From positions 24,819,711-24,883,710 of the forward strand of contig NC_088650.1 in assembly GCF_964019385.1 (NCBI RefSeq): DNA of 64,000 nt. Reading direction: 5' to 3'. A program made the translations under genes and the position numbers. Shown here piece by piece: positions 12,238 to 48,200 of the stretch. Each line of letters opens with the position of its first letter. Within the stretch, counting starts at the first letter, position 1. The notes under the pieces were generated by a model. The model did no database searches, was not told the origin of the DNA, and saw only the letters and a list, made by a program, of their open reading frames with translations. The DNA is from Sycon ciliatum (Eukaryota; Porifera; Calcarea; Leucosolenida; Sycettidae).

Positions 12238-12420
12238 TAAGATCTAGTTCGCTCCTGCTCTTGTAGCAGTTGAGCACTCTTGCGTGGGGTAGTGCCTTTG
12301 CTGTTTGCGTTATGCAGAGCTCACTGACTTGTCAGTTTGAGCACTCTGGCAAGGTACGTTCGGGCCTGATTGGAAATTTTTATTTCCATTGCTATCAGGT
12401 TCGGCCTCATTTCCTCTGTG

Positions 12421-12466
12421 CTGCGCTGATGAGTTCAAAAAGAACGAAACAGTATGCTGTCCGCAG
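12421..12466 (+). ncRNA. Hammerhead ribozyme, type I (family 1, unit 1)
   Basis: All conserved parts are in order: stem I CTGCG/CGCAG (12421-12425 with 12462-12466), core CTGATGA (12426-12432), stem II GTTC/GAAC around an A5 loop, core GAAA (12446-12449), a short stem III CAG/CTG with a TATG loop, and the cleavage triplet GTC with the cut after 12461. The ends emerge from stem I, hence type I. Stem III is very short, as in retrozymes, where efficient cleavage often needs a dimer. Confidence 0.9.
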
Positions 12467-12648
12467 ATTGAGTATTTCGCTCCTGCTCTTGTAGCAGTTG
12501 AGCACTCTTGCGTGGGGTAGTGCCTTTGCTGTTTGCGTTATGCAGAGCTCACTGACTTGTCAGTTTGAGCACTCTGGCAAGGTACGTTCGGGCCTGATTG
12601 GAAATTTTTATTTCCATTGCTATCAGGTTCGGCCTCATTTCCTCTGTG

Positions 12649-12694
12649 CTGCGCTGATGAGTTCAAAAAGAACGAAACAGTATGCTGTCCGCAG
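12649..12694 (+). ncRNA. Hammerhead ribozyme, type I (family 1, unit 2)
   Basis: Second copy exactly 228 bp downstream of the first with the same stems and core; predicted cut after 12689. Together the two cuts would release one 228-nt monomer. Confidence 0.9.
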
Positions 12695-13400
12695 ATTGAG
12701 TAAGATCTAGTTACGTTGGTGGACAGTTTATCATAACTCGTAACATTTTTGTCCTTTACCTTTCTTTATTTTATTTTAACCACATACTTTAATAGTGGCA
12801 GTTGTGCTATTGACCGTCATCTGTGCATTTGTATCTGCACAACTCCGCAGCTTTGTCAATACTGCTCTTGGCCAGCGGCTGACTGGTTGCATGCGCTGCA
12901 GCAGTGCAATCCCTTTTTACCATGCCCTGATGTTCGCCGTCAGGCAAGAGAGTGTAGTGAAGTTTTCTTGCGGGTGAAATGTAGTGATTCAGTATCGGGA
13001 GAGTGTTTTGCAACATGAGGCCATGAGGTGGGGGGTCAGATTAACCCAAATGTACACTTCGTGAACATGTGGGGTCATGAAAACCATCTGAAAAATGCCG
13101 TTTTCCTAGGAAACTTACGCCCGCTTCAATATGAATAAATTATTTGTCTAGTTTGGGCATATTATTGTATTCTACAGTGTACCCGATGCTGTACATGTGT
13201 ATGTGAATCGTTTTTAAAGATACACGGCGTTAAAATGCTGATGTGTACTGAATCTACAGATAGCTATTAAACTCCTTATATTATTGGGTTTGCGTCGTTC
13301 TTGCATTTTGTCGGTATTTCCTCTGATGGATTCTTTCTTTTTCGCTGTTTCTGTGAACCCTTGCGCGTTTGGCCAATTGATAGAATAGAAACTCTTATTG

Positions 13401-13815
13401 TGGCGGACGCACTGTGTTTGGGAACCGTGCTCCTTACTAAAATCTCCATTGTTGGTAGAACCCTTGTCCGGGCCCAACATTTTTCAACAAATAGTTGCTT
13501 TGTCGACTGAACTGTGCTCATTTCTGCTGGAAGTTCGTTGTGAAGGGATCAGAAAATTATCTTCCGCAGAACAGCTGGTAAGTTCAGCACCTGACTCCAA
13601 ATCCTCTTGTCTCAGTATTCAGCATTGCGATTAATTTTCCTTCCTTGCTCTTCAACTGCTTGTTCTTCAACTGCAAAAATGAGACAGCCCGATGTACAAC
13701 GGATCCAGTGATACGAGAGCCGTATGATTCAAATGGTCGCAAGACAAGGGTTCTACCAACAATGGAGATTTTAGTGAGGAGCACGGTTCCCAAACACAGT
13801 ACGTCCGCCACAATG
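13401..13815. repeat. Fold-back element with about 70-bp arms
   Basis: The stretch beginning GCGGACGCACTGTGTTTGGG at about 13401 recurs reverse-complemented at about 13740-13812, including the AATCTCCATTGTTGGTAGAAC block. This is a stem-loop of about 410 bp. No transposase is encoded, so it is probably a non-autonomous DNA element. Confidence 0.7.
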
Positions 13816-14055
13816 TAAATCTGTACGTTCTCCTAGGAGTTGGCTGAGGCCAGGGCTGGCAGGGTATAACAAGGTTTAACTTCGCCAGTTGACATCGGAG
13901 GTAAGAAGTAACCACAGCTTGTTAAACTTTAAGGTCAAAAGTATTACACCGGAGGATGTACCCAGTCAAAAGTATTATACAGACATAGCTAGGAACCATG
14001 TGTGATGAAATTGAGGCAAAAATTATAGAATTGAAGATTAAAAAGCAGTAGAATA

Positions 14056-14120
14056 TCAAGAGTTTGTTGAAAACTACTAGATTATGGCATAATCTAGTAC
14101 TTTTCAACAAACTCTTGATC
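14056..14120. repeat. Near-perfect inverted repeat
   Basis: Arms around AAGAGTTTGTTGAAAA and TTTTCAACAAACTCTT meet at the centre TAGATTATG-GCATAATCTA. It would form a long hairpin, and no function is evident. Confidence 0.65.
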
Positions 14121-14783
14121 TTTTGTTTCGTTATTGTTGATGTTATTGCTGTTGTTACATTGTAACAACAAAACAAATTCTCAGCTGTACTATTAAAAAC
14201 TACAGCCAACGTCTAGCAGGGGTGTTCCGACGTGGTGATGGCCTACCCATGGCCGCGCCGGGACATCACCAACCTCGTCTACAGAGAGCACGTTCTCACG
14301 ACAGTGTCATGGTGGTGACAGTAACTGTTGTCAGTTGACGAGCTGAGAGATGGACACCATAGGCAGAAGTTGGAAAAAGAAAGATAAAGAGTATAATACT
14401 CATAAAAAGGACACACTTCAGAATAAAAGAGTATAAAAGAGAATAGTAAAGTCGGCGGAATAGCGCGAGCTCCGGTGTGGGGAGCAAACCTTTCTTACAA
14501 ATCATCGCCGAAGTCGCAACCACTACTTCGTACTGTTGTGCCCAGCGCGGGCTTGCGACTAGTTGGTTTGGAGGTGACAGCGTTGCGAATGACCGAGGGT
14601 CCTCGACGTCTGTCTCACCGTCCAGGAGCGACACTGACTCACGCTGCTATCTGGTGTTCACGAGGTGTTTATCGCGCTGGAAGCGGAGCGTCTCTGTAAG
14701 TTTGTATCCCTGGTGATGTTTGTGCCTGGAGAGCACTATATAAGTGGTGCTCTTCAGGCACAATCTTCCTCAGCCTACTCAAG

Positions 14784-14827
14784 CTCAACTGATGAGGGGT
14801 GAATTCCCCGAAACACTGTGTATTGAG
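14784..14827 (+). ncRNA. Hammerhead ribozyme, type I (family 2, unit 1)
   Basis: Stem I CTCAA/TTGAG (14784-14788 with 14823-14827), core CTGATGA (14789-14795), stem II GGGG/CCCC with loop TGAATT, core GAAA (14810-14813), stem III CA/TG plus the 15.1-16.1 A-U pair around a CTG triloop, and cleavage triplet GTA with the cut after 14822. GTA is a permitted NUH site. Confidence 0.88.
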
Positions 14828-15260
14828 CAGGGAGTGGTGCTTTCTTGCAGGTTTGCCGAGTCGAAGGTTCGATGGACTTCTCGTGTGCTCTGGATGGCAG
14901 TCGTGAGTCAGTCAAGTGTCAAGTAAAGTCGGCGGAATAGCGCGAGCTCCGGTGTGGGGAGCAAACCTTTCTTACAAATCATCGCCGAAGTCGCAACCAC
15001 TACTTCGTACTGTTGTGCCCAGCGCGGGCTTGCGACTAGTTGGTTTGGAGGTGACAGCGTTGCGAATGACCGAGGGTCCTCGACGTCTGTCTCACCGTCC
15101 AGGAGCGACACTGACTCACGCTGCTATCTGGTGTTCACGAGGTGTTTATCGCGCTGGAAGCGGAGCGTCTCTGTAAGTTTGTATCCCTGGTGATGTTTGT
15201 GCCTGGAGAGCACTATATAAGTGGTGCTCTTCAGGCACAATCTTCCTCAGCCTACTCAAG

Positions 15261-15304
15261 CTCAACTGATGAGGGGTGAATTCCCCGAAACACTGTGTAT
15301 TGAG
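15261..15304 (+). ncRNA. Hammerhead ribozyme, type I (family 2, unit 2)
   Basis: Identical to the first copy and exactly 477 bp downstream; predicted cut after 15299. Confidence 0.88.
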
Positions 15305-15737
15305 CAGGGAGTGGTGCTTTCTTGCAGGTTTGCCGAGTCGAAGGTTCGATGGACTTCTCGTGTGCTCTGGATGGCAGTCGTGAGTCAGTCAAGTGTCAAG
15401 TAAAGTCGGCGGAATAGCGCGAGCTCCGGTGTGGGGAGCAAACCTTTCTTACAAATCATCGCCGAAGTCGCAACCACTACTTCGTACTGTTGTGCCCAGC
15501 GCGGGCTTGCGACTAGTTGGTTTGGAGGTGACAGCGTTGCGAATGACCGAGGGTCCTCGACGTCTGTCTCACCGTCCAGGAGCGACACTGACTCACGCTG
15601 CTATCTGGTGTTCACGAGGTGTTTATCGCGCTGGAAGCGGAGCGTCTCTGTAAGTTTGTATCCCTGGTGATGTTTGTGCCTGGAGAGCACTATATAAGTG
15701 GTGCTCTTCAGGCACAATCTTCCTCAGCCTACTCAAG

Positions 15738-15781
15738 CTCAACTGATGAGGGGTGAATTCCCCGAAACACTGTGTATTGAG
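15738..15781 (+). ncRNA. Hammerhead ribozyme, type I (family 2, unit 3)
   Basis: Third identical copy, 477 bp further on; predicted cut after 15776. Cuts at all three sites would release two full 477-nt monomers. Confidence 0.88.
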
Positions 15782-16899
15782 CAGGGAGTGGTGCTTTCTT
15801 GCAGGTTTGCCGAGTCGAAGGTTCGATGGACTTCTCGTGTGCTCTGGATGGCAGTCGTGAGTCAGTCAAGTGTCAAGTAAAGTCGGCGGAATAGCGCGAG
15901 CTCCGGTGTGGGGAGCAAACCTTTCTTACAAATCATCGCCGAAGTCGCAACCACTACTTCGTATAAAAGAGAATAAAAAGAAAAATTCAGAACAAAAGCT
16001 ATTACTGCAAGTGTACGAGGACTGAGAATCAAGAAGACATCCAGGAGTGAACAAAGAATACACGACTGACGGTGCAACAACAAGAAGTCTTAGGCAACTC
16101 CCCTAGAATACAGAGGGTCAGAACCGGGTCCAACGTTTTAAATACCTTTCCAGATCCTGCCATCGCTGCTACATCCGCAACCTCCGCGCCACGATATCTC
16201 CCACAAACCCTCGCCTCCCATCCCTCCCTGTGCTCATTCGTCAACAACGAAACCCTATAGCAGCGCCCGGGTCATACCTTCGAAGATAATGGGCCCCACT
16301 GGTCGGACAAGCACCTCTCCGGCATCTATTGGTAACGTCTTGAACCACCACTTCGGCAGTGCAGGCGTACAGGTTGACCCTGATGCTCCCATTCCCACTA
16401 TTTCCCCCCTACCTCCACCAGCAACTACATTGCACTCCCTGATCATTACCTCATCGACTGTTTACAAGTATATCGCAAGGCTGCCTCTGAACAAATTCCC
16501 CGAAGCTGATAGGATCACCAATGAGATTATCAGAAAACTGAGGTACTCAAATGCCCGCCCACTCTCTATTCTTTTTAACCTATCCCTCTCCTCTGCCACA
16601 TTCCCGTCACGATGGAAGTCAGCCACTGTCATTCCAGTGTACAAAAATAAAGGCGACAAGAACAACCGACCAATCTCCCTCCTGTCCTGTGTCTCTAAAC
16701 TGCTAGAGAGAATAGTGTACGACCACTTGTAACGTTATGACCATATCTCCCCTCTTCTTCACCTCTGACAATCTGGCTTTCGTCGTAAGGACAACACATC
16801 CCTGCAATTGTCCCGCGTAATTCAAGACCTCGGCTCTCTAAAAGACCAGCGACAGGTCTCCTGCATCTGTTTCTTTGACCTACCCAAGGCCTTTGACAC

Positions 16900-17110
16900 T
16901 AGGGGTGTGCGGATAATGCTCGAAAAGGTGGCAGATTCTGCTCGAAAAGCAGTGAAATTGGCAGAACCATAAAAACCTTATGGCGGGCAATTCCTCGAAT
17001 TCTGCTCCATTTCTTTATCTACATTAGTACATACCAAACATGCATGAAACTTATCAGAAAAAGTACCGAATTCTGCCAATTTTTCTGCCGGCAGTATCCA
17101 CATATGCCTA
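16900..17110. mobile_element. hAT-like MITE, 211 bp
   Basis: Inserted in the LINE fragment with an 8-bp duplication TTTGACAC (16892-16899 and 17111-17118). The ends TAGGGGTGTGCGGATA and TATCCACATATGCCTA form imperfect terminal inverted repeats. An 8-bp duplication and TAGGG-type ends are typical of hAT elements. Removing the insert and one duplication restores the AFDTVW motif of the reverse transcriptase, which confirms both boundaries. Confidence 0.88.
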
Positions 17111-17337
17111 TTTGACACCGTGTGGCACAAGGGCCTCATCGCCAAACTTCGTGCTCACGGTGCTTACGGTGCTCCCCACTGGCCTGGATAACTAGTTACC
17201 TCTTCCACCGAAATCAGCGCGCCACAGTGAATCGAACTTTATCTTACTTCGAATCTGTGACGTCCGGAGTGCCCCAGCCGCCCAGGGCTCCGTTTTAGGT
17301 CCCCTGCTCTTCCTCACATACATGTACATGTCCGTTA

Positions 17338-17400
17338 AATGACCTTTCCTTATGCAATTCCCAATATTTAATATTGGGAATTGCATAAGGAAAGGTCATT
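17338..17400. repeat. Perfect 31-bp-arm palindrome
   Basis: A 63-bp sequence reads identically on both strands except for its single central base (AATGACCTTTCC... to ...GGAAAGGTCATT). It sits just before the FADD motif of the broken LINE and displaces the reading frame. It may be a tiny fold-back insertion or a hairpin-mediated duplication of LINE sequence. Confidence 0.85.
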
Positions 17401-17783
17401 TTCTTTGTTTGCAGATGATACCACTGTCCTTGCGTCCTCCCCATCTCGCACCACACTGTACCCCAAAGTTCAGACCCGCATCAACAACATTGTCCACTGG
17501 ATGAGCACTTGGTAACTCAAGCCAAATGTGACAAAAACCGAGCTCCTCCTTTTCCCCATCCCACAGATCCAGTGCCCATCTTCCACTTTCCCGACGATCC
17601 CGGTCACGCTATTTCTGTAGCGCCCCATCATAAACACCTTGGCATTGTCATAGATTCCGCCCTCTCCTGGTCTTACAATACTGACCATGTGTCCTCCCGA
17701 GTATGCCGATCTGTCGGTATAATGGCAAGTCACTTCTCCCATTTGCCTCACAATTGCCGGATTAATTTTTATAAATCATACAT

Positions 17784-18783
17784 TGATAAGAGAAAAGGAC
17801 CAAAGAGCTACAAGTTACGCTATAAGTATCCACTAACACCACCAGTTACTTTACAATCAGCTCATGCGATAACATTGCACGACACTGACCAACGGTACTG
17901 ACGTTCTTCATCTGACTGGCAATCAGCTCTAGCACATCTAGGATGCGCACTCCAGCAGCCTTCCAGCTTGGAAGGTTCTAAGTTATAGAAATAACATAAG
18001 GAGGTCCCCTCTAATCGATCTTCGTATCTCTATAGCCACACAGGTTGTGTGGTATGTTGCCATGCGTCCTTGAATCGTGGTTTGACCGTTTTGTCTGATG
18101 GTCTTGCCAGGATCCTCCTCGATATACATGTACATGTACATCCGCCAGCGTCCTTCACAGCTGAGGCTTTCAGCTCGTGATTTTCTTGGTTGCGCTCACC
18201 TTCCCCTCCTGATGTTATTTCTATACCTTAGAACCTTCCAAGCTGGAAGGCTATTGGAGTGCGCATCCAAGATGTGCTAGAGCTGTTAGCCAGTTAGGTG
18301 TAGAACGTCAGTACCGTTGGTCAGTGTCGTCACGGCAATGTTATCGCATGAGCTGATTGTAAAGTAACTGCAGTGGTGTTAGTGGATAATAATTATAGCG
18401 TAACTTGTAGCTCTTTGGTCCTTTTCTCTTCTTATAAATTTTTCCTTGGCTCTCCACCTGAGTCTAACTATGGGCGCGTTCGAATTGTCACTCTTTGACT
18501 TTTCGAGGAGCTTCGTTTTTCTGAAGAGGTGGCCTTATTGGCCTCTTCAGAAAAACGAAGCTCCTCGAAACTCATCCGATGGGAAGGTGGATTAGTTTCG
18601 AAGAGTTTGGAATAGCTACGTCACGTAGTCCGTGGAGATGGTCGATCTGATCGGACGTCATCATCGCCATGACAATTCCACTGAAAAACTCTAAAATAAT
18701 AGAAACCGTTCTAATGGGACACTTCAACTAATCTCTTTATAAAATTTGTTAGAACAGTTGATGAAGACAATTCGAACGCGCCC
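17784..18783. mobile_element. Two fold-back elements inserted in tandem within the LINE fragment
   Basis: The LINE frame stops at TAAATCATACATT near 17783 and resumes after the same 13-bp sequence near 18795, so about 1 kb was inserted. The first element (about 17790-18445) has arms of about 210 bp starting AGAAAAGGACCAAAGAGCTA and ending in the reverse complement. A related end occurs near 61110. The second element (about 18473-18783) begins GGGCGCGTTCGAATTGTC and ends with the exact reverse complement. Inside it a palindrome with 29-bp arms lies near 18505-18572. Neither encodes a protein. Confidence 0.75.
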
Positions 18784-19079
18784 TAAATCATACATTCTTC
18801 CCCTCTTCACGCACGGCTTCCCTGCTTGGTCCACCATTAACAAAACCCAAATTGCGAAATTAGAAGTTTTTCATCGCCGTATACTGCTCATAATATTTCG
18901 TTCTGGTCGTTACACATCTCAAATCCAGACTTGTGTGCTGCTGCATCCACTACCACTTTGCAACGCTACCTTGATGCTTCCAAGAGCATCCGGGGTCATT
19001 CCATTCTTTTTGACCAGCACCCTGCTCATTTGCAGTCACTTTTGTATTTTTTTGTTGTATTTATATCATTATCTCATGG

Positions 19080-22000
19080 CACATCATGATGACGGCCAGT
19101 AAAACTGAGACAAGGGTGAAAGCCAACCACAGCAGTAAAACAGATAAAAGAATACAAATAAAAGGCAAAGAAGGCAAAGGAGGAGACAAACCAGCAGGAT
19201 ATACATGAAACCTATATTTGAGCAGAGATTTTAGCAACAAAATTAACCATCGACGTGCTGGTCTTGGCCTGCGTTGGTAATGTTGCCCAAAACACATAGC
19301 CAGCAAAGATCGGGGATCTAGTGAATAGGGTGGAGGCAGCGCGTGGGAGACTGAATGAGTTCCGGGTATTCCGTGTTTCGGAGAACCAATTATAAGCCTG
19401 CATATGCAAGGGTATTTTATTTAGTAATATTTTATGTATGAGAACACAGAGGTGGTACTTATGTCGAGTGGAAAGGGGACTGATCTTGGCAATTTCGCAA
19501 AGACTAGCGGAGGGAAAGCGGCGATCTTTGCTAAATATGATTTTAAGGAGCATGCGGTTATTGGTTTCTAGCTTGTTCAATACAGTAGTAGTTATGCCAG
19601 ACCAAGCAGTATCACAGTAGTCAAGTAAGGGCAATATTATAGCAGCGATAAAACAAGCGTTTGCAAGAAAGAGGAAGATGTCTACAGTGGGCTTGAAGAG
19701 CCCCAAGGATGGAGCTTGTGCGCTTGCAGACATACTGCACATGGGGTGACCACGACAATTTAGAGTCAATGACAACGCCAATATGCTTATGCTCTTCAAC
19801 ACTACGAATAGCAACACTTGAAGAAGGAAAACAAAGTGGCAGGGAAGGGGGAGAAGGGGAAATGTACATAGCTGCCGTTTTATCAACGTTTGGCTGCAAC
19901 TTCCAATCATGCATCCAGGTTATAACCTTGCCAATGCTATCTTGCATGGCTTCGTGCAGTCGTATAGGGCAAGCATTGGAGCAAAGCAGAGCTGTGTCGT
20001 CAGCGAAAAGGCTGACACCAGGGGCAATATCGGGGAGGTCATTAATATACAGGAGAAATAGCAGTGGCCCAAGGATTGAACCCTGGGGGACTCCAGAAGT
20101 ACCGGGTAAAGGCTCCGATAACACAGTTGAGAGGCGTACAAGCTGATGTCGGTGAAAGAGATACGATGAGAGCCAGTCGATAGCCTTGCCATCAATGCGA
20201 TATACTGTTCGCAGCTTAGCTAAGAGAACCCTGTGCCAAACAGTGTCGAAGGCCTTTGCAAGATCGAAGAAAACTAAACCAACATGGTTATGGGCGTTCC
20301 GGGCGGTGTGGATGTCTTGCACGAGGCGGGTAACCTGGTACCTGGTGGAGTCACCCCGACAAAAGCCCGACTGTGCTGGCGAAAGTGAAATGCGAACATG
20401 ATCATAAACGATGTCATATACAACACGTTCGCACACTTTTGATAAAGTAGAGCAATGAGATAGGGCGATAGTTGCTGGGGGTGGTGCGTGGTCCTCTATT
20501 TTCGTAGGTGGCCACGACTACCGCAGTTTTCCACATGGCTGGGAATTTCCCTTCGCGAAATGACATATTCAAGATAATTGACACAGGATAGGCAACAGAC
20601 GGAGCAAGAGCTCTCCAAACTTCGTTGGTAATGCCGTCTTGACCAGGGGACATGCCAGTTTTCAGATTACGGAGATATTTCCTCACTTGGGCTGTACCAG
20701 TCGACAATGATAGGAGGGACGCAGGTATTGAGGGTGAAGGGGTGAGTGGTGGTATAGGCCACGTAGGGTCGTCAGGAAGTCCAAACGACGTAAACTGCGT
20801 GTTCAATATGTCTGCTATGTCTGCGGGATCTGTTGCTACCTTGCCGTCTGAAGCTGTCATTGATCGGATCGGCTCCCGACTACAGTTCTTACGGAGATGG
20901 CGGAGAAATTGATGGAGACTAGGGCGATCATGGGAAGACAGGGTGGCATGAACCGACTGTACATACTGACGATGGAGGGTACGTGACAAACATTTCACTT
21001 CGTTACGCTTGCGCTTAAAGGCAATGAAGTTTTCACTGGTTGGATACTTCCTATAAATCCTATACAAATCTCGCTTCAGTTTCACAGCACACTTGAGGTC
21101 TGGAGTGATCCAGGGTCGGGATGCATCCCGCATAGTAGGATGAGGCCTAATGTAGTCTCCTGTGCGCGGAATAACTTTGTAAGGCAATAGATGACGATGG
21201 AATGCTGACTGTAGTAAAACATCAAACAGGACAATGGCATCATCAACATCAGAATGCCGATGAAGTAATGACCAGTCCAACCTAGACAAGTCTTCATTCA
21301 CAACCTGCCAGACACGGGTAGGCACTTGTTTATACATGTACTGAGCCTGGGGATGGAGGGACGATTTAGCAGTCGCTTGTGGTGTCGAGTACGATGCATA
21401 GTTGAGCGTACAAACAACCAGCAGATGATCAGATGTGCCAGGAGGTCGACTGAGAGGACATGTCGGTGTTTGTTTGTTACCAACAAGTCAAGACACGAGT
21501 TGGCACCCGCTGATGAAGTGTATGTTGGGAAACTCACTAGTTGTTGGAGCCCAAGCATTGAAAAACTGTCTGTAGGTTGGTACCGGCTGTAGAGGTGGAG
21601 TCAGAAGAGCACCAATCATTATGTTTGGCATTAACATCCCCCGTCAGGAAGAAGTCACACTCGTCATAGCAAGAGGACCGTATAGCATCGACCAGCATAT
21701 CCGAGAAGAAGGACAATTGTTCCACCGTTTGGGAAGGGGGTCGATACATGCAACATACAAGAATAGGGTTAGGGGTGCATTTAGACTTAACTTCCACCCA
21801 GGCAGATTTACAGCCCTGACGCTGCAGATCGGGTCTGTGGAGAATATGTTGAAAAGCATCAGTCCGGACAAGCACGGCGACACCACCATATCCTCGGCTT
21901 CGTGCTCTCCAGAACAATCGAAAGTTCAGCTATTTTATTGACGAGAGACCGACAATTCATGGTTATCAGCGTTAGGTCGGATTCTGATCTGGGGTAGAAT
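19080..22000 (-). pseudogene. Non-LTR retrotransposon (CR1/L2/jockey-like LINE), endonuclease plus reverse transcriptase
   Basis: Read on the minus strand the order is as follows. First an endonuclease start (MNCRSLVNKIAEL) near 21960, joined by a deletion to an endonuclease C-terminus at 21917-21537 (GDVNAKHNDW motif). Then a linker at 21558-21298. Then reverse transcriptase at 21337-20414 (GQDGITNEVW, NYRPISLL) and 20436-19621 (FFDLAKAFDTVWH, GVPQGSILGPLLFLLYINDLP, catalytic SLFADDTAL). The C-terminus is at 19910-19212. Frame changes near 21320, 20430 and 19640 and the endonuclease deletion make it inactive, but it is much better preserved than the plus-strand copy. A 3' untranslated part runs to about 19040. 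Such an enzyme could have mobilised the ribozyme repeats in trans. Confidence 0.92.
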
Positions 22001-22133
22001 GGGGTAGCATGCAAGTTGAGGGAAGACATAGACAACATGATTATGACGAGGAACTATCACCACCACGTTCAGTCACGTTGGTACCGTCGGCAATTTAATT
22101 GGCTTCAGTCAGGTGGCATCACCCGAAGCTGCG

Positions 22134-22330
22134 TTCGTCTGCGTTCGTCTGCGTTCGTCTGCGTTCGTCTGCGTTCGTCTGCGTTCGTCTGCGTTCGTCT
22201 GCGTTCGTCTGCGTTCGTCTGCGTTCGTCTGCGTTCGTCTGCGTTCGTCTGCGTTCGTCTGCGTTCGTCTGCGTTCGTCTGCGTTCGTCTGCGTTCGTCT
22301 GCGTTCGTCTGCGTTCGTCTGCGTTCGTCT
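22134..22330. repeat. 10-bp minisatellite GCGTTCGTCT, about 20 copies
   Basis: About 20 perfect head-to-tail copies. All three forward frames stay open and encode the same 10-residue period, so the frames are artefacts. Confidence 0.95.
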
Positions 22331-22371
22331 CCCCCTAACTACAGGACATGTAGCTCTACCCTATTCGTAAA

Positions 22372-22570
22372 TTCCCCTTCCCCTCTTTTCCTCCCCTCCC
22401 TGTCTTTTCCTCCCCTCCCTTTCTTTCTTCCTACTCCCTTTCTTTTCTTCCTACTCCCTTTCTTTTCCTCCCCTCCCTTTCTTTTCCTCCCCTCCCTTTC
22501 TTTTCCTCCCCTCCCTTTTCCTCCCCTCCCTTTCTTTTCCTCCTACTCCCTTTCTTTTCCTCCTACTCCA
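22372..22570. repeat. Pyrimidine-rich low-complexity tract
   Basis: About 200 bp of C/T with recurring CCCTTTCTTTTCCTCC motifs, strongly strand-asymmetric. Confidence 0.85.
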
Positions 22571-22763
22571 CGTGGCTCCTACTGCCTCCCAGTGTTAGGC
22601 AAGCTCCAGATATGCCCAAATTCCGTACCCTCGTCAGACAGCACTTCAGTATTCATGTATTCCAGTAAACAAAATCACAGTTACCACTTCCGCTGCATAG
22701 CTCGCTGGGCATCCCATTGCTTTGTAACTTGCTCATCCCTCCCCCTTTTGTGTACTTCAAGTA

Positions 22764-22944
22764 CAGTCAAACCTCTTTAGGACGAACACCAAGGGACTGA
22801 CGGGATTTGTTCGCAATAACGGGTATTCTTCTTATCCATAATACCGAGTGAATACACAGTGATTTATCCAATAGAGGTAAACATACCAGTTTTTCTTAAG
22901 CGAAAGTTTGTTTTATCAGTGTTCTTCTTAATGAGGTTTCACTG
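22764..22944. mobile_element. pogo/Tigger-like MITE, 181 bp
   Basis: Begins CAGTCAAACCTC and ends GAGGTTTCACTG, with inverted ends of about 28 bp, flanked by TA on both sides. CAGT ends and a TA target site are the hallmark of pogo-type Tc1/mariner elements. There is no transposase. Confidence 0.8.
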
Positions 22945-23386: not shown

Positions 23387-23474
23387 TAAAGGTCACTGTT
23401 TCCGAACACGGTGGTCCTCCACCTTGTTACGTGCTGTCAACCAACAACATGTTTTAACGAAACAAGGTTTATCT

Positions 23475-24068
23475 GGATGGCAGTCGTTAGTCAGTCAAGT
23501 GAGAATTCAAGTCGGCAGGAATAGCTCAAGCTCCCACGCAGGGAGCAACACACAATTACCCAAATATCGCCGAAGTCGCACCAACCTCTTCTTCACATTG
23601 TTGTCTCCGGAGCGGGCTTGCGAATTACATGTAGATGGTTTGGAGGCAACAACTTTGTGAATGGCCAACCAACGGTCCTCAGCGTTCGTTCAGCATCTCC
23701 ACGAGCGACACTGACTCACGTGCTATCAATTTCTAGTGTTCACGAGGTGTTTGTCGCGCTGGGAACGGAGCGCCTCTGTAAGTTTGTATCCCTGGTGATG
23801 TTTATGCCTGGAGACTCAGTGGAGAGCATTATAAGTGGTGTGCCTCAGGCACAATCTTCCTCAGACTACTCAAGCTCAACTGATGAGGGGTGAATTCCCC
23901 GAAACACTGTGTATTGAGCAGGGAGTGGTGCTTTCTTGCAGGTTCGCTGAATGGATTGTTCGATGGACTTCTCGTGTGCTCTGGATGGCAGTCGTGAGTC
24001 AGTCCAGTGAGAATTCAAGTCGGCAGGAATAGCGCAAGATCCCAAGTAGGGAGCAACACACAATTCCC
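23475..24068 (+). mobile_element. Family 2 hammerhead retrozyme, diverged 1.2-unit copy
   Basis: The sequence aligns to slightly more than one 477-bp family 2 unit with many substitutions and small indels, and both ends fall in the same part of the unit. It is flanked by an imperfect duplication around GTTTATCT. An uninterrupted relative of the target, AACAAAGTTTATCTAAT, is present on the minus strand at about 24738-24785 and serves as an empty-site control. The 44-base ribozyme is unchanged although the rest has drifted. Confidence 0.82.
23875..23918 (+). ncRNA. Hammerhead ribozyme, type I (family 2, diverged copy)
   Basis: All 44 positions match the ribozymes of the 14446-15961 array, including both cores, all stems and the GTA cleavage triplet. 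The surrounding repeat differs at many sites, which suggests selection on the motif before insertion. Confidence 0.88.
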
Positions 24069-25330: not shown

Positions 25331-25630
25331 GCATTGGCAGTCCTTTACTACTAGGCTAGTACTACTACTACTACCACAACGTGTAGTACAACTGTTACGG
25401 TTATACATGTAGATAGTGAGGCCCTAACTACCTAGCCTAAGTTTCCGAACACGGTGGTCCTCCGACTTGTAACATGCTGTCAACCAACAACAATTTACAT
25501 GATTTTTACTGTATATTCTATAGGGTTTACAGATCATGAGTGGTATTATGACACATGGAAGACGATCAGCTTGCCAGATCAGAATCAATGAAAGACTTAC
25601 ATGTACATGATTGTACATAATAATACAGAC

Positions 25631-25774
25631 TTGTCAGTTTGAGCACTCTGGCAAGGTACGTTCGGGCCTGATTGGAAATTTTTATTTTCATTGCTATCAG
25701 GTTCGGCCTCATTTTCTCTGTGCTGCGCTGATGAGTTCAAAAAGAACGAAACAGCATGCTGTCCGCAGATTGAG
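25631..25774 (+). mobile_element. Family 1 hammerhead retrozyme, 5'-truncated copy
   Basis: 144 bp corresponding to the 3' part of a 228-bp unit, ending with the same GCAGATTGAG as the other copies. It is flanked by a 13-bp duplication TAATAATACAGAC (25618-25630 and 25775-25787). A constant 3' end with a variable 5' end and a 10-15-bp duplication is the signature of target-primed reverse transcription. Confidence 0.88.
25723..25768 (+). ncRNA. Hammerhead ribozyme, type I (family 1, truncated copy)
   Basis: Complete ribozyme with stem I CTGCG/CGCAG, both cores, stem II GTTC/GAAC, a CATG stem III loop and GTC cleavage. It is intact despite the 5' truncation of the element. Confidence 0.88.
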
Positions 25775-25810
25775 TAATAATACAGACATGTACATGTATT
25801 TCGAAGTAGT

Positions 25811-30580: not shown

Positions 30581-33177
30581 GTAAGGCAGGCACACGATCA
30601 TTGTGTGTATTTCCGCGCCGCATCGAACGGTATGCATTATTGTCATACCGATACGATTACTCGGATTAGTAGTAACGTGTCGTGAGTTGTGATTTAGTGT
30701 CACTTCTCTGAATAAACGACTCCGCGCTTGGTGGAATATGTACACAATTACTTCGTTAGTATAGGAGTAAAAGAGAATAGCCAAAGTGTCACTGTGTGTC
30801 TCCACGTAACAATTACATGTACGTAGTTTAGAGAAAGGAAAGGAGTTGTTAGTACTGCGGCTGTAAGCATGGTAAGTGGTCGTCAATGTTGCGGTGTCTC
30901 TACATGCTCGATGCGACAAGCTTTTCTGATTCTGTGCTTGTGAAGTGGTTTGAGCATGTAGCAGAATGGCAGGGCTTGCATTGGCTCCTGAATGGTGTTG
31001 ACTTTGTCGAGAGCTGGGTACAGTTATGTGGTTTCGTGTTGTAAATTGCTATCGCGATAAAGTTTGGGAAATTTCCGCACCCGTAGTTGTTTGAGTTCGA
31101 CAACAGACGTGGATATGCATGTTCTTCGCATAACAAGCCAAGATAATACATACGGTACTTCTGGATCCGGACTCCTTCCCCTGACGTCGGCCTTTGTTGC
31201 ATGAGGGTCGTTTGTGCTGTTCTTCTGGGCCGTTTCCTGATGTTTCGGGCAGGCTTGGTGGACACCTGTGACGTGTTATTGCGTGGATTGGGTCGCGCCT
31301 AAGACATAGCTAGTGTCGTGATCTGAACCTGGCTGGGTCATCACTCATTCTCTCGTCTTTGCAAAGCTGGCGACCAGGCACATGTTTTACTCCACAATGG
31401 CATAAATTTGTTGGCACACATGCGATACAACTGGGCCCTACATTCTGGAACTGAATGGAATCGTGCAAGCCTGATGCTGCAAACATGACCCTATAATTAC
31501 TATAATGGGGTGCTGAAGGGAGGTGGATAAAGTGGGAACGCCCTGTCCATGTGGCCAACACATCTCCAGGGTGTAAAATAATAAAATTGTGCCAGACACC
31601 AATACCATGCTTGGAAGGGAGATAATTTGCGCTGCAATATCATCAAGGTGTTGGTGTCCATCCCTGCGATGTGTGCTTGAGGCAATCGTGTTGGCAAGAG
31701 GTCAGGTCAGGTTCATCCAGCACCCCCCCCCCCCCACACACACATACGAGTAAGCTGCCTCACCATTTGAAACGTGAATACTGAGCTGTGGTTCGGCTAT
31801 CAATCTCAACAGAATCTTGACCTGTGTGTGTGTGTGGGGGGGGGGGGGGTACGTAGGAATGACATCAGTGGGCTAAGCTGTGCCTTCAGAGCCTCCATAA
31901 TTATGTTGTGGAGCATAGCCCAGGAAAAACCGTGACAGAAAGAGATAAAATTGGTGACACTTGAAGAGCAAACAAAGACGTCGGGAGCGGACGAAGTGCT
32001 TTGAACATGGATTACTTCCCATACACAGACTAAGAGAGATCATGGAGAGATCATGGAGAGATCATGGAGAGATCATGGAGAGCTATCGTGTGGGCACTAT
32101 TAGAGGGCGACTTAGAAACCTTTAAAATCTACTCAGTTGTAGTGAGGTATATTCTAACTGCGCTAATAGCCTATGACGTGTAGTGACATTCTGTAGACAC
32201 GTAAGTTACCTGTGCAAGGGATATTGGCATAACATCTACATAACTGTATCTCTAGTTGGTCACGGGAGTTGAGTCGAAAACGCACTCACCCCATCTTGAT
32301 TCGCCAAGTCTTGATTGTCTTCTACCGTGGACATAATTGCTGTGTTGAAGCAAAGGCAATTCATGTATGTGAATGTGGCGATTGGTGCTTGGTGGTGGAC
32401 ACTTGTGTGAATTGCATGCTCATTGCGTCTTTCTACTGGCGACCTGGCACTGCATCTGCTTGTGAATGTGCATGCGCTAGTGAGTGCTTGGGCCATAGTA
32501 AGGGGGGGGGGGGTGGAAGGATCGATATGCGCAATGTGATTTATTCGGCTATGCTACGAGTGTACTTTTACATGCCCATGGGCGACGGGTATGACATACT
32601 GCCTCTGGGCACCTGACATGTGTATGGACAATGTGGTGTCTACTGTGTGTGGTACGGAAACACACACACACGTTTAGGTTGGCAGTGATCAGGTGATCGG
32701 TGCCAGTACAGCACGGCATCTCCGTGGTATGTATGTACATAATTGTGTAACGCAGATTGAGTATTTCGCTCCTGCTCTTGTAGCAGTTGAGCACTCTCAT
32801 GTGGGGTGGTGCCTTTGCTGTTTGCGTTATGCAGAGCTCACTGACTTTTCAGTTTGAGTACTCTGGCAAGGTACGTTCGGGCCTGGTTTAAATCTGGCTT
32901 TGGAAAATATATTGTTCATTGCCATCAGGTTCGGCCTTATTTTCTCCGTGCTGCGCTGATGAGTCCGCAAAGGACGAAACAGTTCTGTCCGCAGATTGAG
33001 CATGTATGTATGTATGTATGTATGTATGTATGTATGTATGTATGTGTGTATGTATGTATGTATGTATCACCCATAACAATATTGGTCGTAGGGGCATTGA
33101 ATTGTCATTGGCAATAGAAGAAGCTACGTACACTCATAAACAAGCTGTCTATATTCGACGCGCTCAGCAGCAGCGAG

Positions 33178-33328: not shown

Positions 33329-33388
<60 letters not shown>

Positions 33389-33401: not shown

Positions 33402-33472
<71 letters not shown>

Positions 33473-40987: not shown

Positions 40988-41031
<44 letters not shown>

Positions 41032-42312
41032 GTGTATCTGTGCGCTGGGATACACCGGGCCATTCTGCGCTGATGATGTCGATGAGTGTCTAGCAGCGCC
41101 CTGCCAGCGGAATGGCACGTGCGACAACTACCCGGGAGTCTACCGCTGCAAGTGTGTCAGTGGCTTCACTGGCAAGCATTGTTCTCGTGACGTGGACGAG
41201 TGCAGCACAACGTGAGTGTGCATTTGTCAAGAAATCCCGTATGCATGATCCATATTGGCTGCCATGACGTATATGTATTCAAGGAACCAAGGTGTGGTAG
41301 TTTCACATGAAGCAATCATTCAGGCTTAGTTGTCTATTGTTCGATTGTGGGTGTCATATGCCAGTTACTGGTAGTTAGACAGACTATTAACATCAGTCAT
41401 CAATAATTTGGTGCTTTCATGTTCATTTCAAAATTGTACTTGTATTTTGTACTCCTGCAGTTTTCCTGTACCATTCACATGCAGGCACTGATTTCCCATC
41501 TCTAAACTTAGGTTGCAATGGTGAATGTCTTCGCATGGGTATATTTCATGTCCTGTATTGCTGTGTGTTGTCTATCATTTTATGTCTTGTATTCCTGTGT
41601 GTTGTCTGGCATCATGTCCTGTGGTAGTCCTTGCAAGCACAGCGGCGTGTGCAGTAACACGGTCGGATCCTACACGTGTGCTTGTCTGGCTGGTACCACC
41701 GGTGATGACTGTGCTGTGGACGTGAACGAATGCTCTTCATCACCGTGTCTCAACGGAGGCACGTGTCAGCAAAGAAACTGGACCGTGTCGATTACCAGTA
41801 CATACCACTGTCTGTGTCCACCGCAATACACAGGTAGGGCGACTGGTTCAATCTGGACTAGTGCTGCATGGCTTCTCTCCAGGCGTGTCTCTGAGTACAT
41901 GAATGCAGCTCTCACTGGGGATGTTTTTCTTTTTGCCTTTCCTCTCCACTCTCCCTTGCCCCCAATATCCTTCTTTACTTTGCCCCTTGCCCCTTGCCCT
42001 TTCTCCATTAACCTGTCCCCTGGAAAATCGTAACAGTATGTATACCCAGGTCTAGTGGGTATGTCAATTCAATGACGTCATGAGGAGACGATGCACATCC
42101 AGAGTCTAACACAGTGGACTTCGTCTCATAGTAGGTGTGATGTACCTTTTTGCCTCCACAGACTAGTAGGTGAACTGTATTCAGAGGGGCAGTTCTGCAG
42201 TGTTCATTCACTTATAACAACACCAGCATGTCACAGACAGTCCAACAAGATGATCCTATAGTAGCTACAAATTATATCTGTGTGATGTGCTTTAGAGTTG
42301 GAACAGGAACGT

Positions 42313-42381
<69 letters not shown>

Positions 42382-42695
42382 CCAGCACTGCACGCTTCTT
42401 CCGACGCCTTTTCAATACCGTACATTTCACTTAATTCGGTGGTACTGTGCCGGCCATGTGCAGGTACGCGTTGTGAAACTCTCTGGGATGACTGCTACGT
42501 TGATGCTACGCACACACATTGCCTGAATGGTGGCACGTGTCATGATCAGGTTGGGACATTCCGGTGTTCATGTCCTGCTGGCTACACTGGCGTTCATTGT
42601 GAGACGGATGTCGACGAATGTCTTCCGTCACCGTGTCTCAGCGGTGCGACATGCCACGACATGGTAAGACCTCGGTGGATCCACACTGCATCCGC

Positions 42696-42749
<54 letters not shown>

Positions 42750-45137
42750 GTGTATATGTGTGTGTGTGTGTCTCAGTTTAGGTCTGTCCAGAACTACACG
42801 TGTCTTTCTGCCTCCGTGAGCAACTTTGGCCTTGGGATTAGACACAGATATAATAGGCTGCATAGATGTCCATGTGGATTTGTTGTACAGTAACACTATA
42901 CTTTAAACGTACTCCCCAGAGTGTTCAGGGAGACTGGACGCACGATGTAGAGCAGTTTTATGTGGCACTCATCTAGATTAGCTTCCACTGCATGTAGTCT
43001 GATGTTTTCAAGTGGCTTTCCTCCAAGTAGCTAGTTATCAAGAGCCTGCTTCAATGGTACACTATAGAATAATCACCGATAACGTGATGTTGGAAATTGC
43101 TGTTCGATTATGCTGTTGTTCTTGTCCTTTCCTGGTCCAGGTCAACGCATTCCAGTGCACATGCCCTGCTGGGTTCACCGGGTCGCAGTGCCAGAGCAGT
43201 GTCATAGACCATTGCCGTACAGCACCCTGTCCACACCATTCCAGCTGTACAGACACACCGAGTGGCTACACTTGCCAGTGTGCCAGCGGTTACACCGGCG
43301 TACAATGCCAGATTGACATCAACGAGTGTGCGTCACAGCCTTGCCGTAACGGTGGTCAGTGCAGCGACTTGCCTGGAGGTTTCAGTTGCTCCTGCACCGG
43401 AACACGTTACGCGGGCGATCGGTGCGAGATAAGCCTCTGCGACCGGCACTGCACCGCGGACAACACAAACAAGTGCATAGCGGACACGGCAATTCCAAAT
43501 GGTGTCCGCTGCCAGTGCCTGTCGGGCTACACGGGGTCGTCATGTGACAAGGAAACGGACGAATGCAAGCCCGACCCGTGTCACAATGGCGCTGTCTGTG
43601 AGGACAAGGCCAATGACTTTAAGTGCAAGTGTGCACCGGGATTCATGGGAAAGATGTAAGTAGTCATGTAGTGCACCGGTCAGCTGCTTGCTACTATCTC
43701 CTCTGTGTGAGCAAAAGTCTGGCCATCAGGGTTTTGTGTATTGGAATGATTTTGAGATACATGTGCAGAGGGATTTGATATACCTGTATTGAAGCTGCTA
43801 CTATCTCTTCTGTGGGCATCTGATAGTCATAAGGGTTTAGTGTTTTGGAATGATTTTGAGATACACCTGTACGGAAGAGTTAGATAGACCTGTATGGAAA
43901 TGTACTTGTGAACACCTCCATTCCCTGTTATATACAAGTATACGATATCTTGTATATAGCTATCCGTCACTGCAGCAACGGCATCCCGGTACATGTCAGG
44001 ATTAGTGCGCATGCGCAAGGAGTCAGGTTGGTTCTTGTTCATGGAGTAAGAGTTTGGAAATGTACCTTGATTGAGATTCCCTTGTTGTGTCTTTGGAAAG
44101 ACATAAAATTCCCCGAACAGGCTCTGAGCTGCACGAAAGCCTGTTCCGGGAATGGAGGTGTTAACAAGCGGAAAGAAAGCGTTACAGTGGAGTCGGAGAG
44201 TATTAAGGAATTGTATTGAAATGATTGTGATATACCGGCTGTTAGTAATAATAGTAGTACTGAGTGCAATGCATTTGCTAGCCTGTATCAAGCTGATACC
44301 AGTGTTACACGCACTTGGATGTTGTGTCGGTGTTTCAGGTGTGATGTCGACGAGGACGAGTGTGCACTGCTGCGTCCCGCGTGCGTTGTCGGCTCCTGCA
44401 ACAACCACCACGGTTCCTACAGCTGCATGTGCCCGGACGGATTCAGCGGCTCACGCTGTGAGAACAATCTGGACAACTGTGCTGCGGCGGTGGCAGCAGT
44501 GACAACGTCCGTACTGTGTCAAAACGGCGGAAGCTGTATTGACGGCGCTGACCATCATACCTGCATCTGCTCGGCTGGCTTCATCGGTGACGAGTGTGAG
44601 AAGCGAAACGAGACGGTTTCCGGTAAGCCCACTTCGCCATGGTTAACGCATGTCCCTGTTCAGGTGTGTCGCACATTTGCTGTCTGGATATTAGCAACAA
44701 GCATCATAATGGATGCATGCTTGGAATAGTCATTCGATTTTTGTGGGATACTGCTCAGCTCAGTGTCAAGTCAGTCGGCAGGAAGCGCGAACTCCGACGT
44801 TTGGAGCAGACACTTTCTTCACTACTCAGCTCATTCAAGCAAAACATCTCTTACCCCTTGCCCTCCAATGGTCAGACTTGACTGTATCTTTCAGATCTTT
44901 ATCCTTTATTTCAAGTCTTGGAAGGTCCTTTAGTTAGGCGTAGCATTTACCTAGTGAGGGATCACCAATTCAGCGTTTTACTGAAACAATGTTGAGTTAC
45001 GAAGAAAGCTGCATAATTATGTAATGGTTCGCTGTGTTGTCTGATGTATGCGTGCTTGGTATTACAGCTAACAGTATCTGCCCAAGCAGCTGCAAGTCAT
45101 ACTCGGATAACTATTGCGACGTAAGTCTTCCCATTGC

Positions 45138-45228
<91 letters not shown>

Positions 45229-48200
45229 ATGTGCGTGCGTGTGTGTATGTATGTATGTGTGTGTGTGTTTGTTTGTGTGAGTATGCGTGCGTGCTTCCAA
45301 GTATATGTATATCACAGTACCATTAACACAGTACCATGGCCACCGGTCTCCTGCATGGTACTGTTTACACACCATTCTGCAGATCATGTGTGCGGCAAGT
45401 AGGCCACACATCCCGTACTCTGCACTGCGCTTTTGGAAATGGTCCCTTCATGCTATAGTGTGAGTCAACCAACAATTCATTGAACTGTTTTGAAACAGTT
45501 GCGTCGGGATAGGTTTGATATTTCTTCCCTCACATGGAGATGTGTAGACAGCACTGGTGATGTGTTTTCTGACTCTGTTTGCTTGTTATAATAGCACTAT
45601 GACAGTTTTCTAAGGAGTCTTGTAGCACTTTGTGTGTGCGGTTTCACTTCTATTTCTGGCTCATTGATGATCCTTTGCTTGTCTCTGCTACATGCAGCAA
45701 GCATGCAACAGGGCAGCTTGCTCGTGGGACCGTATGGATTGCTCCCTGCACTTCAATCCCTGGCTGCAGTGCGCCCATGTAGCAACCTCTGATGGCAAGA
45801 AGTGCTGGGAAGTGTTCGAAGACGGAGTATGCAATCAAGAGTGTAACTGCGATGTGTGCAATTTCGACGGAAGAGACTGTGAAGCCATGGAGCGGACATG
45901 CAAGTAAGAATATGATTCCTAAGTGTCTTTAGTCGTTATGTCAAAGGCAAGGATGCATACAGGCACCAGCTTTGCCTCACTTTTCTGTAGACAAACATTT
46001 CTCCAGCGTTCCGCTTTGATTTTTGGGAAATGCATGATTCTTCATGTCACTGCTCTCTACGTTCCTTGCATGCCACATTCATTCACTTTGATGATGATTT
46101 TGATATGCTTTCTGCAGTGATTTATCCACATGCGAGAATGACTTCAACAATGAGAAGTGCAACGAAAACTGCAATTCTCTGGCCTGTGGCTGGGATGGTG
46201 GCGATTGTGTCGATGCAACAATACTGGTAAGATGCTGCTGTAATCGCCGATGTTGGTTTGATTTCCGGTGTGTGTGTGTGTGTGTGTGTGCGCGTGCGCG
46301 CGTGCGTGTGTTGTAGCACTTTGTGTGTGAGGTTTCACCGTCATTCCCTGCTGCCAGTTTGCCTGTTTTCCGTGTACTAACGTTAGAATGTGTGGACGAG
46401 CCTGTTTGAGCAGCACTAACTTGCTTGAAGGAAGACTTATAGTTCACCTGTGTGTGGCATCTGTGTTTCATGCAGTTGGAAGGAGAGCTTTGGATGATAG
46501 TGGATGTTGATGTCAAGCACTTCACCCGAGAGTTTGCCCAGTCGCTGCGCTACAACTTCAGCAAGTTGCTGCGTGGTATCGTTGTCATCGAGGCAAACGT
46601 ATCTGTCGACGGCAAGGCTGTAGAGGAGATGGTGAATGAGGTGAGACCGGCGCTTCGGGATCTCACAGGATTCCACAGAAAGTCATAGCATGCAGTATTA
46701 GGTCATTTCCAGGTGTATAATAGTGACTTCAGCCTTGGCTTTGGGTTCTTTTGAAAGGCAAGGAACAGTGCAACCCTAGGACCTCAACTACTGGACTGTG
46801 AACTGGCTCAGAGCACTGGACTGGGAACGGGATGGTGTTGTGTTGCGGAGCACTAGCATGTTCATAATTCCGGATGCCATTGGACACCGAATCATCGGAA
46901 TCATCATGCACACACATGCCTAACTCAGAGTGATAGCTGCAAGTAGAGTGAGACTGTTTGCTCCCTGCTCATGATGATCGTCAATTGTACTCACTGTAGT
47001 AAAGCTTTGTGGCTATACGTACGTACATATTTCGCTCCTGCTCTTGTAGCAGTTGAGCACTCTTGCGTGGGGTAGTGCCTTTGCTGATTGCGTTATGCAG
47101 AGCTCACTGACTTGTCAGTTTGAGCACTCTGGCAAGGTACGTTCGGGCCTGATCGGAAATTTTTATTTCCATTGCTTTCAGGTTCGGCCTCATTTTCTCT
47201 GTGCTGCGCTGATGAGTTCAAAAAGAACGAAACAGCATGCTGTCCGCAGATTGAGTATTTCGCTCCTGCTCTTGTAGCAGTTGAGCACTCTTGCGTGGGG
47301 TAGTGCCTTTGCTGATTGCGTTATGCAGAGCTCACTGACTTGTCAGTTTGAGCACTCTGGCAAGGTACGTTCGGGCCTGATCGGAAATTTTTATTTCCAT
47401 TGCTTTCAGGTTCGGCCTCATTTTCTCTGTGCTGCGCTGATGAGTTCAAAAAGAACGAAACAGCATGCTGTCCGCAGATTGAGTATTTCGCTCCTGCTCT
47501 TGTAGCAGTTGAGCACTCTTGCGTGGGGTAGTGCCTTTGCTGATTGCGTTATGCAGAGCTCACTGACTTGTCAGTTTGAGCACTCTGGCAAGGTACGTTC
47601 GGGCCTGATCGGAAATTTTTATTTCCATTGCTTTCAGGTTCGGCCTCATTTTCTCTGTGCTGCGCTGATGAGTTCAAAAAGAACGAAACAGCATGCTGTC
47701 CGCAGATTGAGTACATACATGTATGTGTGTATGTGTGTTTCTGTTTTCCGCGCTGTGTTGGTGCCTAGCTAATGTCCTCGGCTGTAGAATCTGGATCACG
47801 CTCAAAACGAAGCAAACAACAGACCAATCTGCTGGCGCGTTACTCTGGAAGGAACTTGTAAGTGTTTGTGTTTGCTGGTTACGCCCTCTTGATGTGTTCT
47901 CGGAGATGAGTAAGCACATCTTTGCGTGTGCTTATAATATTACCGACGCGCGCGCACGCGCGCTTGTGTGTGTCTATTCATGTGTGCGTTTGTCTATGTG
48001 TGTGTAAGTGCATAATTATGTGTGTGTGTGCCCATTCATGTGTGTGTATACTTGATTTGGTGCATGGATGTGCAAGCATGCGGGTCAATAGCACTTGTGT
48101 GGCTTGGCAGATTATCCAGCCATTTGAACCACCAGGGCACTGGTTTAGTCTGATGCATGCATCTGTTTTGTTCTATTATTCTTTGTGTGTGTCCACAGTA

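Follow-up and report, generated by a model that had tools for sequence, protein, structure and literature searches.

In a 64,000-nucleotide (nt) stretch of the genome of the calcareous sponge Sycon ciliatum (contig NC_088650.1, positions 24,819,711 to 24,883,710; hereafter the window), we describe two families of repeats, with units of 228 and 477 nt, that carry type I hammerhead ribozymes. Very probably, the 228-nt family is an animal retrozyme of the kind that lacks long terminal repeats (non-LTR) and is copied from an internal UA of its RNA, and the 477-nt family is a second retrozyme, probably copied by the protein of a Penelope-like element. The window belongs to an assembly of 538 Mb, and the analysis covers this one genome, of which ∼300 kb of sequence was read. 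The animal non-LTR retrozyme itself is a known kind of element; what is new here is the anatomy of its insertions, and the insertion junctions, which the original prediction made from the letters of the window had not used, are the strongest evidence for the retrozyme reading.

Four insertions of the 228-nt family lie in the window and together carry seven intact type I hammerheads. The coordinates first given for these copies were correct to within a few bases, and the refined features are as follows:

12238..12249, plus strand: left target site duplication of the dimer, TAAGATCTAGTT
12250..12700, plus strand: dimer insertion, with the end GATTGAG
12701..12712, plus strand: right target site duplication of the dimer, TAAGATCTAGTT
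25631..25774, plus strand: 5′-truncated insertion, flanked by TAATAATACAGAC at 25618-25630 and 25775-25787
32751..33000, plus strand: diverged single unit (239-nt form) plus 11 nt
47030..47711, plus strand: trimer insertion, with the target duplication TACATA at 47024-47029 and 47712-47717

With the G of GAG counted, the duplication of the trimer can also be read as GTACATA. The copy at 32751 adjoins an ATGT microsatellite and has no clean target duplication; its 5′ end coincides with the predicted cleavage site, which is one event. Tandem Repeats Finder reported the 228-nt unit two times at 12248-12702 and three times at 47028-47713, with 100% matches in each, and BLAST placed the truncated copy at 25625-25776 and the diverged single unit at 32751-33003. 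The GC content of the unit is 47.8%, and no open reading frame (ORF) of at least 150 amino acids (aa) was found across the copies of this family in the window. Frames of 62 to 88 aa across the trimer were rejected as genes, since they recur only because 228 is divisible by three. A candidate promoter of the RNA polymerase III type (GGTTCGR) was seen by eye in both units; in the 228-nt unit, a run of five T's between the candidate boxes argues against it.

Insertions were then read from 88 loci and the window, which gave 82, or 78 once the near-duplicates L029, L030, L031, and L034 had been removed. In 74 of the 78, the 3′ end lay at most 6 nt from a single point of the unit, between GATTGAG and TA, compared with 4.4 expected if the ends were uniform. 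Fifty of the 88 loci had been fetched with a pattern that includes this common 3′ end; in the subset found by a whole-unit query together with the window, it was present in 28 of 29. Cleavage is predicted 11 nt upstream of this point, which lies within the monomer, and the copies span the cleavage site. The 5′ ends, counted over the 74 insertions with the common 3′ end, were dispersed across the unit. Duplications of at least 8 bp flanked 49 of the 78 insertions, and only 2, 6, 6, 7, and 4 of 78 when right flanks were swapped between loci; measured from the GAG junction, the duplication was 10 to 15 bp long in 35 of 39. The first two target bases, scored in the 43 insertions with a duplication of at least 8 bp and a readable TTGAG, were TA in both copies in 29, TG in 4, and other bases in 10. 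Over the 69 insertions with a readable TTGAG, the base after GAG was T in 63 and the next base A in 61. Since both copies of the duplication start with TA in most cases, this dinucleotide belongs mostly to the target; it also follows GAG in the RNA, where the corresponding internal UA could thus base-pair with a nicked strand ending in TA. Because the start point is inside the monomer and copies run across the cleavage site, the template must have been circular or multimeric and not a cut linear monomer. Taken together, these junctions fit target-primed reverse transcription that starts at a UA within an RNA of circular or multimeric form.

Insertion L019 contains five complete units, and sequence differences between the units of one array are often few or absent. 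We note a 234-nt subfamily with similar flanks at at least five places on contig C3 (L028 to L031 and L034), as if one insertion had multiplied with its surroundings.

The mechanism that we propose for the 228-nt family starts from tandem read-through transcripts, which would be cut once per unit by the type I hammerhead, and the monomers would be closed into circles. A reverse transcriptase (RT), presumably from another element, would nick AT-rich DNA and expose a 3′ end in TA, and this end could anneal to the UA after GAUUGAG inside the RNA. Copying would proceed leftward on what is probably a circular template until the enzyme drops off. Insertions made in this way would share their 3′ end, differ in their 5′ ends, hold one or more tandem units, and be flanked by duplications of mostly 10 to 15 bp. 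The anatomy of the insertions is consistent with such spread of the 228-nt family through circular RNA.

The hammerheads of the 228-nt family in the window are the following:

12421..12466, plus strand: type I hammerhead 1, stem I CTGCG/CGCAG, core 12426-12461, predicted cleavage after 12461
12649..12694, plus strand: type I hammerhead 2, core 12654-12689
25723..25768, plus strand: type I hammerhead 3, core 25728-25763
32951..32994, plus strand: type I hammerhead 4, stem II GTCC/GGAC, core 32956-32989
47204..47249, plus strand: type I hammerhead 5, core 47209-47244
47432..47477, plus strand: type I hammerhead 6, core 47437-47472
47660..47705, plus strand: type I hammerhead 7, core 47665-47700

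Every one of them has the stem I CTGCG/CGCAG, a stem II of four pairs, a short stem III, and an open stem I, which makes them type I. The strict motif CTGATGA..GAAAC..GTC had seven matches in the window, all in the 228-nt family, compared with a mean of 0.08 and a maximum of 1 in 100 shuffles, and it was present in all seven window units that contain the 3′ part; the claim of seven intact type I hammerheads is thereby confirmed. Folded as circles, the units were more stable than shuffles, with z scores of −2.8 for the 228-nt form, −3.2 for the 226-nt form, and −1.2 for the 239-nt form. Genome-wide, the pattern ACGAAACAGN{2,4}CTGTCCGCAGATTGAG, which represents the 3′ half of the ribozyme, had 3,567 matches without mismatch and GAGCTCACTGACTTGTCAGTTTGAG had 2,571, with no match for either reversed control; the 3′-half pattern also had no match in collections of viral, bacterial, and archaeal contigs. 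From the loci read, we extracted 195 ribozymes, 70 of them distinct, and both core and cleavage site were intact in 160 of the 195. This set is biased toward intact ribozymes, because the retrieval of 58 of the 88 loci relied on ribozyme sequence (the 3′-half pattern for 50 and Rfam for 8).

The original prediction had taken a double change in stem II of the copy at 32751, from GTTC/GAAC to GTCC/GGAC, as direct evidence of selection on an RNA fold. The change is present, but a double change seen in a single copy carries little weight and that wording was overstated; fair evidence comes from the larger set. Removal of five of the 70 distinct ribozymes with larger indels and trimming of the remainder on the 5′ side left 58 distinct rows. 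Over these rows, 95.2% of the paired cells could pair, compared with 94.1% after shuffling and 26 to 52% for slid structures. Cells changed on both sides numbered 19, compared with 9.0 in shuffles (reached in 0 of 500), pairs with a change on both sides numbered 3, compared with 1.4 (29 of 500), and the covariation score was 0.067, compared with 0.051 (0 of 500). The single stem II pair of the double change accounts for 17 of the 19 cells; it is C-G in 29 and U-A in 17 of the 58 distinct ribozymes. These comparisons suggest that the hammerhead fold has largely been preserved; one pair covaries strongly, and quite a few copies are broken.

Several results weigh against this account of the 228-nt family. 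At the gathering thresholds, Rfam gave no match in the window, where no copy reached the cut-off; below it, six window copies scored 29 to 31 bits with Hammerhead_HH9 (cut-off, 52; E = 8e-4 to 3e-3) and the copy at 32751 scored 25.1 bits with Hammerhead_1 (cut-off, 34; E = 0.099). The Rfam search that the original prediction had proposed as a check thus failed in the window but succeeded in part in the genome, where Hammerhead_1 had 21 matches among 74 scored candidates, 4 of them over the 34-bit cut-off; it had no match in 14 control genomes. All eight loci retrieved by Hammerhead_1 match the 228-nt unit, L001, L005, and L007 over 50 to 59 bp only. Because Rfam at its gathering threshold is empty in the window, the motif statistics and the genome copies carry the case for the hammerheads. 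Minimum-energy folds of the isolated window ribozymes kept stem II and did not draw the full three-way junction. Despite the selection for intact ribozymes, 35 of the 195 had no intact core or site, and the varying pair of stem II is disrupted in 12 of the 58 distinct sequences. Further pair types (9, compared with 8.3) were not above shuffles (133 of 500), and one slid structure scored 0.066, close to the true fold. Finally, 12 of the 74 5′ ends fell at whole turns of the unit within a 16-nt stretch, where 5.2 were expected, and a scan over all stretches gave a P value of 0.30. Six of the 74 were at unit positions 1 to 5 (1.6 expected) and six at 218 to 228 (3.6 expected), neither significant after the scan, and we accordingly rejected a preference of 5′ ends for the cleavage site or for whole turns.

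Variants private to an array gave no clear signal of a single circular template; 6 were in all units of their array and 72 in some units only, 52 of the latter in one poorly aligned array. An alternative is a SINE-like (short interspersed element) mode of spread, in which linear, uncut, multimeric read-through RNA undergoes target-primed reverse transcription and cleavage and circles are irrelevant to mobility. With a start point inside the monomer and copies that read across the cleavage site, a multimer would serve as well as a circle, and ribozyme mutants of the Anolis Penelope-like element were without effect on insertion in vitro, as described in the accessible part of that study (PMC11167929). 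However, the fold is largely kept across diverged copies, core and site are intact in most of the ribozymes of our set, which favors intact ones, and published animal retrozymes yield abundant circles, according to the accessible text of PMC7229834. We regard the SINE-like mode as credible but unlikely.

The retrozyme assignment itself held up on the unit length of 228 nt, the GC content, the tandem units, the lack of an ORF of at least 150 aa, the type I core, and duplications longer than 4 bp. Metazoan non-LTR retrozymes were described by Cervera and de la Pena in 2020 from the coral Acropora, a mussel, and the axolotl, and in the available portion of that report they resemble the 228-nt family in having a type I hammerhead in each unit, dimers and trimers, no long ORF, a GC content below 50%, duplications longer than 4 bp, and Penelope-like elements alongside, with coral units of 220 to 240 nt (PMC7229834). 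The 228-nt family also fits the range of 150 to 450 bp for metazoan retrozyme repeats. Its fixed priming point and TA rule set it apart, as none is given for metazoan retrozymes in the same portion of that report. Plant LTR retrozymes are, like both sponge families, small non-coding retroelements with hammerheads, and their GC content is high, as it is in the 477-nt family (53.7%); their hammerheads are of type III and their duplications 4 bp long, whereas the 228-nt family has type I hammerheads and duplications of mostly 10 to 15 bp and on these two features does not match the plant LTR kind (accessible parts of PMC4918200, PMC7761336, and PMC11722881).

The second family, which the original prediction of the 228-nt repeats does not mention, forms one array in the window and has a diverged copy there:

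14446..15961, plus strand: array of the 477-nt unit, 3.2 copies, 100% identical, ending in ..CACTACTTCG, with the duplication TATAAAAGAGAATA at 14432-14445 and 15962-15975
14783..14828, plus strand: type I hammerhead of the 477-nt unit, stem I GCTCAA/TTGAGC, stem II GGGG/CCCC, recurring at +477 and +954
23472..24056, plus strand: diverged copy of the 477-nt family (81%), with an identical hammerhead sequence and its core near 23881

Tandem Repeats Finder bounded the array at 14445-15963, and cleavage is predicted after GTGTA. The array has a long 3′ end, which carries CTACTTCG, and a 14-bp duplication; genome-wide, 974 cases of read-through at the tail of the 477-nt family were counted. The circular fold of the unit had a z score of −6.3 compared with shuffles, and the exact 47 nt of its hammerhead had 2,615 matches genome-wide and none for the control. 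No ORF of at least 150 aa was found in the window array, so the 477-nt family is not itself a Penelope-like element that codes for RT and GIY-YIG domains. With 477 nt and its GC content, it falls outside the ranges stated for metazoan retrozymes (RNAs of 170 to 400 nt, repeats of 150 to 450 bp, GC below 50%; accessible part of PMC7229834), and it looks like an element built as a retrozyme yet beyond their stated size and GC range.

By BLAST, 4 of the 3′ ends of this family (14 rows) fell at unit positions 43 to 53, 6 at 86 to 92, and 4 elsewhere. The exact end of five arms is CACTACTTC[GA]; among the eight listed occurrences of CTACTTC[GA], these five are ends of the family and three are unrelated, in L094 and L027. 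Three of the five head-to-head loci (L026, L094, and L096) have one arm in each 3′ end class (unit 46 to 53 and 86 to 92), and L095 and L098 are head-to-head without this pattern. The two classes are 33 to 37 nt apart (L096 and L094). We also counted the strands of neighboring copies, using the first 100 of the 2,615 places listed for the 477-nt family, of the 3,567 for the 228-nt family, and of the 103 for the Penelope-like element. For the 477-nt family, minus-then-plus pairs numbered 16 and plus-then-minus pairs 0 within 1 kb, and 17 and 2 within 8 kb; the 228-nt family had 0 minus-then-plus pairs and 1 plus-then-minus pair at either distance.

A Penelope-like element was found in the same genome. 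A genome search for GIY-YIG domains gave at least 13 matches at E ≤ 0.001, with 150 of 944 candidates scored. An open frame of 807 aa at locus L092 matches GIY-YIG (E = 3.4e-5) and has what we take to be RT motifs; Pfam gave no RT match in this frame. L092 carries a minimal hammerhead motif at 3402, and L093 is closely related to it (97% across 2.65 kb). Genome-wide, a 25-nt stretch of the minimal hammerhead has 103 matches, and their neighbors are minus-then-plus in 13 and plus-then-minus in 0 cases within 2 kb, and in 16 and 0 within 8 kb. The direct arm of L092 ends at CTCTTCGAGTT, and its inverted arm continues for 32 nt to CTACTTCG and TTA, with the whole flanked by the 7-bp repeat GTCTTCC. 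Tails were readable in two Penelope-like copies, L092 and L093; both contain CTACTTCG, three bases from the end in L092. The tail of the 477-nt family, measured from the short end in L096, is 33 nt long and ends in these eight letters as well, a match reached by 5 of 200,000 shuffled tail pairs. In both the 477-nt family and the Penelope-like element, a predicted hairpin precedes the short end. TATATAA lies 52 nt before the hammerhead core in the 477-nt unit and 42 nt before it in L092 and L093; it is absent from the 228-nt unit and from the third Penelope-like copy, L090.

In the literature, Penelope elements are marked by arms placed head to head and by an optional tail of ∼31 bp (PMC3846280); this tail spans the interval between two internal sites at which reverse transcription starts (PMC11167929). 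Tails of 31 bp in Adineta and of 30 to 40 bp in Drosophila virilis, and an inter-start-point stretch in Anolis, are described in the accessible parts of these two papers, and the 477-nt family shares with Penelope-like elements the head-to-head arms, the optional 3′ tail on one arm, and start points inside the template. Unlike them, it codes for no protein, has a hammerhead with longer stems instead of a minimal one, and has a unit of 477 nt. These likenesses suggest that the 477-nt family is probably a Penelope satellite, which the protein of the Penelope-like element may move, judging from their shared anatomy.

In its fullest form, this interpretation has two retrozyme families served by different machines in one animal genome. 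The 477-nt family would be a satellite of the Penelope-like element, recognized by a similar 3′ tail and primed on both DNA strands, each arm with its own start point; the shared tail would consist of the hairpin and then a stem-loop of 32 to 37 nt with CTACTTCG at or near its end. The 228-nt family would spread by rolling reverse transcription from the UA in an RNA circle. We give this full form about an even chance. Counting against it are the four 477-nt 3′ ends found elsewhere: L095, which is diverged, has two, L098 has one, and the fourth lies at the edge of its locus. The comparison of the two tails was chosen after the ends had been seen, and their likeness involves two element copies and five arms of the 477-nt family. 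In addition, CTACTTCG occurs 21 times in 363,555 bases, where 11 are expected.

Alternatively, the 228-nt family could also use the Penelope-like protein, restricted to the first of its start points, the one that gives no tail. The tail-less arm of the element reads CTTCGAG before TT and the retrozyme ATTGAG before TA, so that both end in GAG followed by T; short duplications flank insertions of both, and Penelope-like elements are a published candidate partner (accessible part of PMC7229834). This common end, however, is three or four letters only and comes from one element copy, and the 228-nt family has no tail and no minus-then-plus pair among the places counted above. Such a shared protein appears quite doubtful to us. 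Plain satellite DNA, spread or homogenized by unequal crossing-over or by reinserted extrachromosomal DNA circles with the hammerhead as a passenger, would account for the often near-identical array units and for the several 228-nt copies located in microsatellites, but it is very improbable given dispersed insertions, many shorter than one unit and 5′-truncated, with exact target duplications and one fixed 3′ end, since DNA circles would open anywhere.

The surroundings of the arrays were also inspected. A Notch-like gene spans the right half of the window, with EGF, LNR, and ankyrin repeats (LNR, PF00066, E = 1.2e-12 and 4.4e-9) and a NOD match under its cut-off; to our knowledge, Notch genes are restricted to animals. 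The trimer at 47030-47711 sits on the sense strand in a presumed intron of this gene, between its LNR/NOD and ankyrin parts, so the gene's own transcription could yield retrozyme RNA. Farther downstream, an inverted repeat of 344 nt carries a minimal hammerhead motif:

56559..56902, minus strand: arm of the 344-nt inverted repeat with the minimal hammerhead motif, core 56710-56738
60623..60966, plus strand: partner arm of the 344-nt inverted repeat, core 60787-60815

The arms are 95% identical, minus then plus, and 3.7 kb apart, and their exact core has four genome occurrences only, in two such pairs. A tandem repeat of 336 nt at 62288-63369 leads into a 230-aa frame at 63255-63947 that looks by eye like a tyrosine recombinase and has no Pfam match. 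Two long hairpins, at 17337-17401 and 18497-18574, had sub-threshold Rfam microRNA matches and are possibly small inverted-repeat elements. On assembly contig C291 (locus L089), a 588-aa frame resembles bacterial UvrC by eye, as in DNA of a symbiont or contaminant.

Penelope-like elements have been proposed as retrozyme partners on general grounds (accessible part of PMC7229834). A review of 2020 reported that no motif was known for the partner, and in the accessible part of a review of 2024, long interspersed elements (LINEs) or Penelope-like elements are still given as the options (PMC11722881). Among the matches listed in our literature search, no partner was reported in titles or abstract openings, and no paper joined hammerhead ribozymes or hammerhead retrotransposons with Porifera. 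The 3,567 and 2,615 ribozyme matches make the S. ciliatum genome a rich natural data set for ribozyme variation. The junctions of the 228-nt family fix its priming point and target rule, and the 477-nt family and a Penelope-like element of this genome are alike in the length of the tail, the bases near its end, the head-to-head arrangement, and the TATA spacing (the last in two of three element copies). If the proposed relationship is true, this resemblance would be, on the literature surveyed, the first sequence signal to identify an animal retrozyme's partner, and it turns the partner question into a direct in vitro test with known templates.

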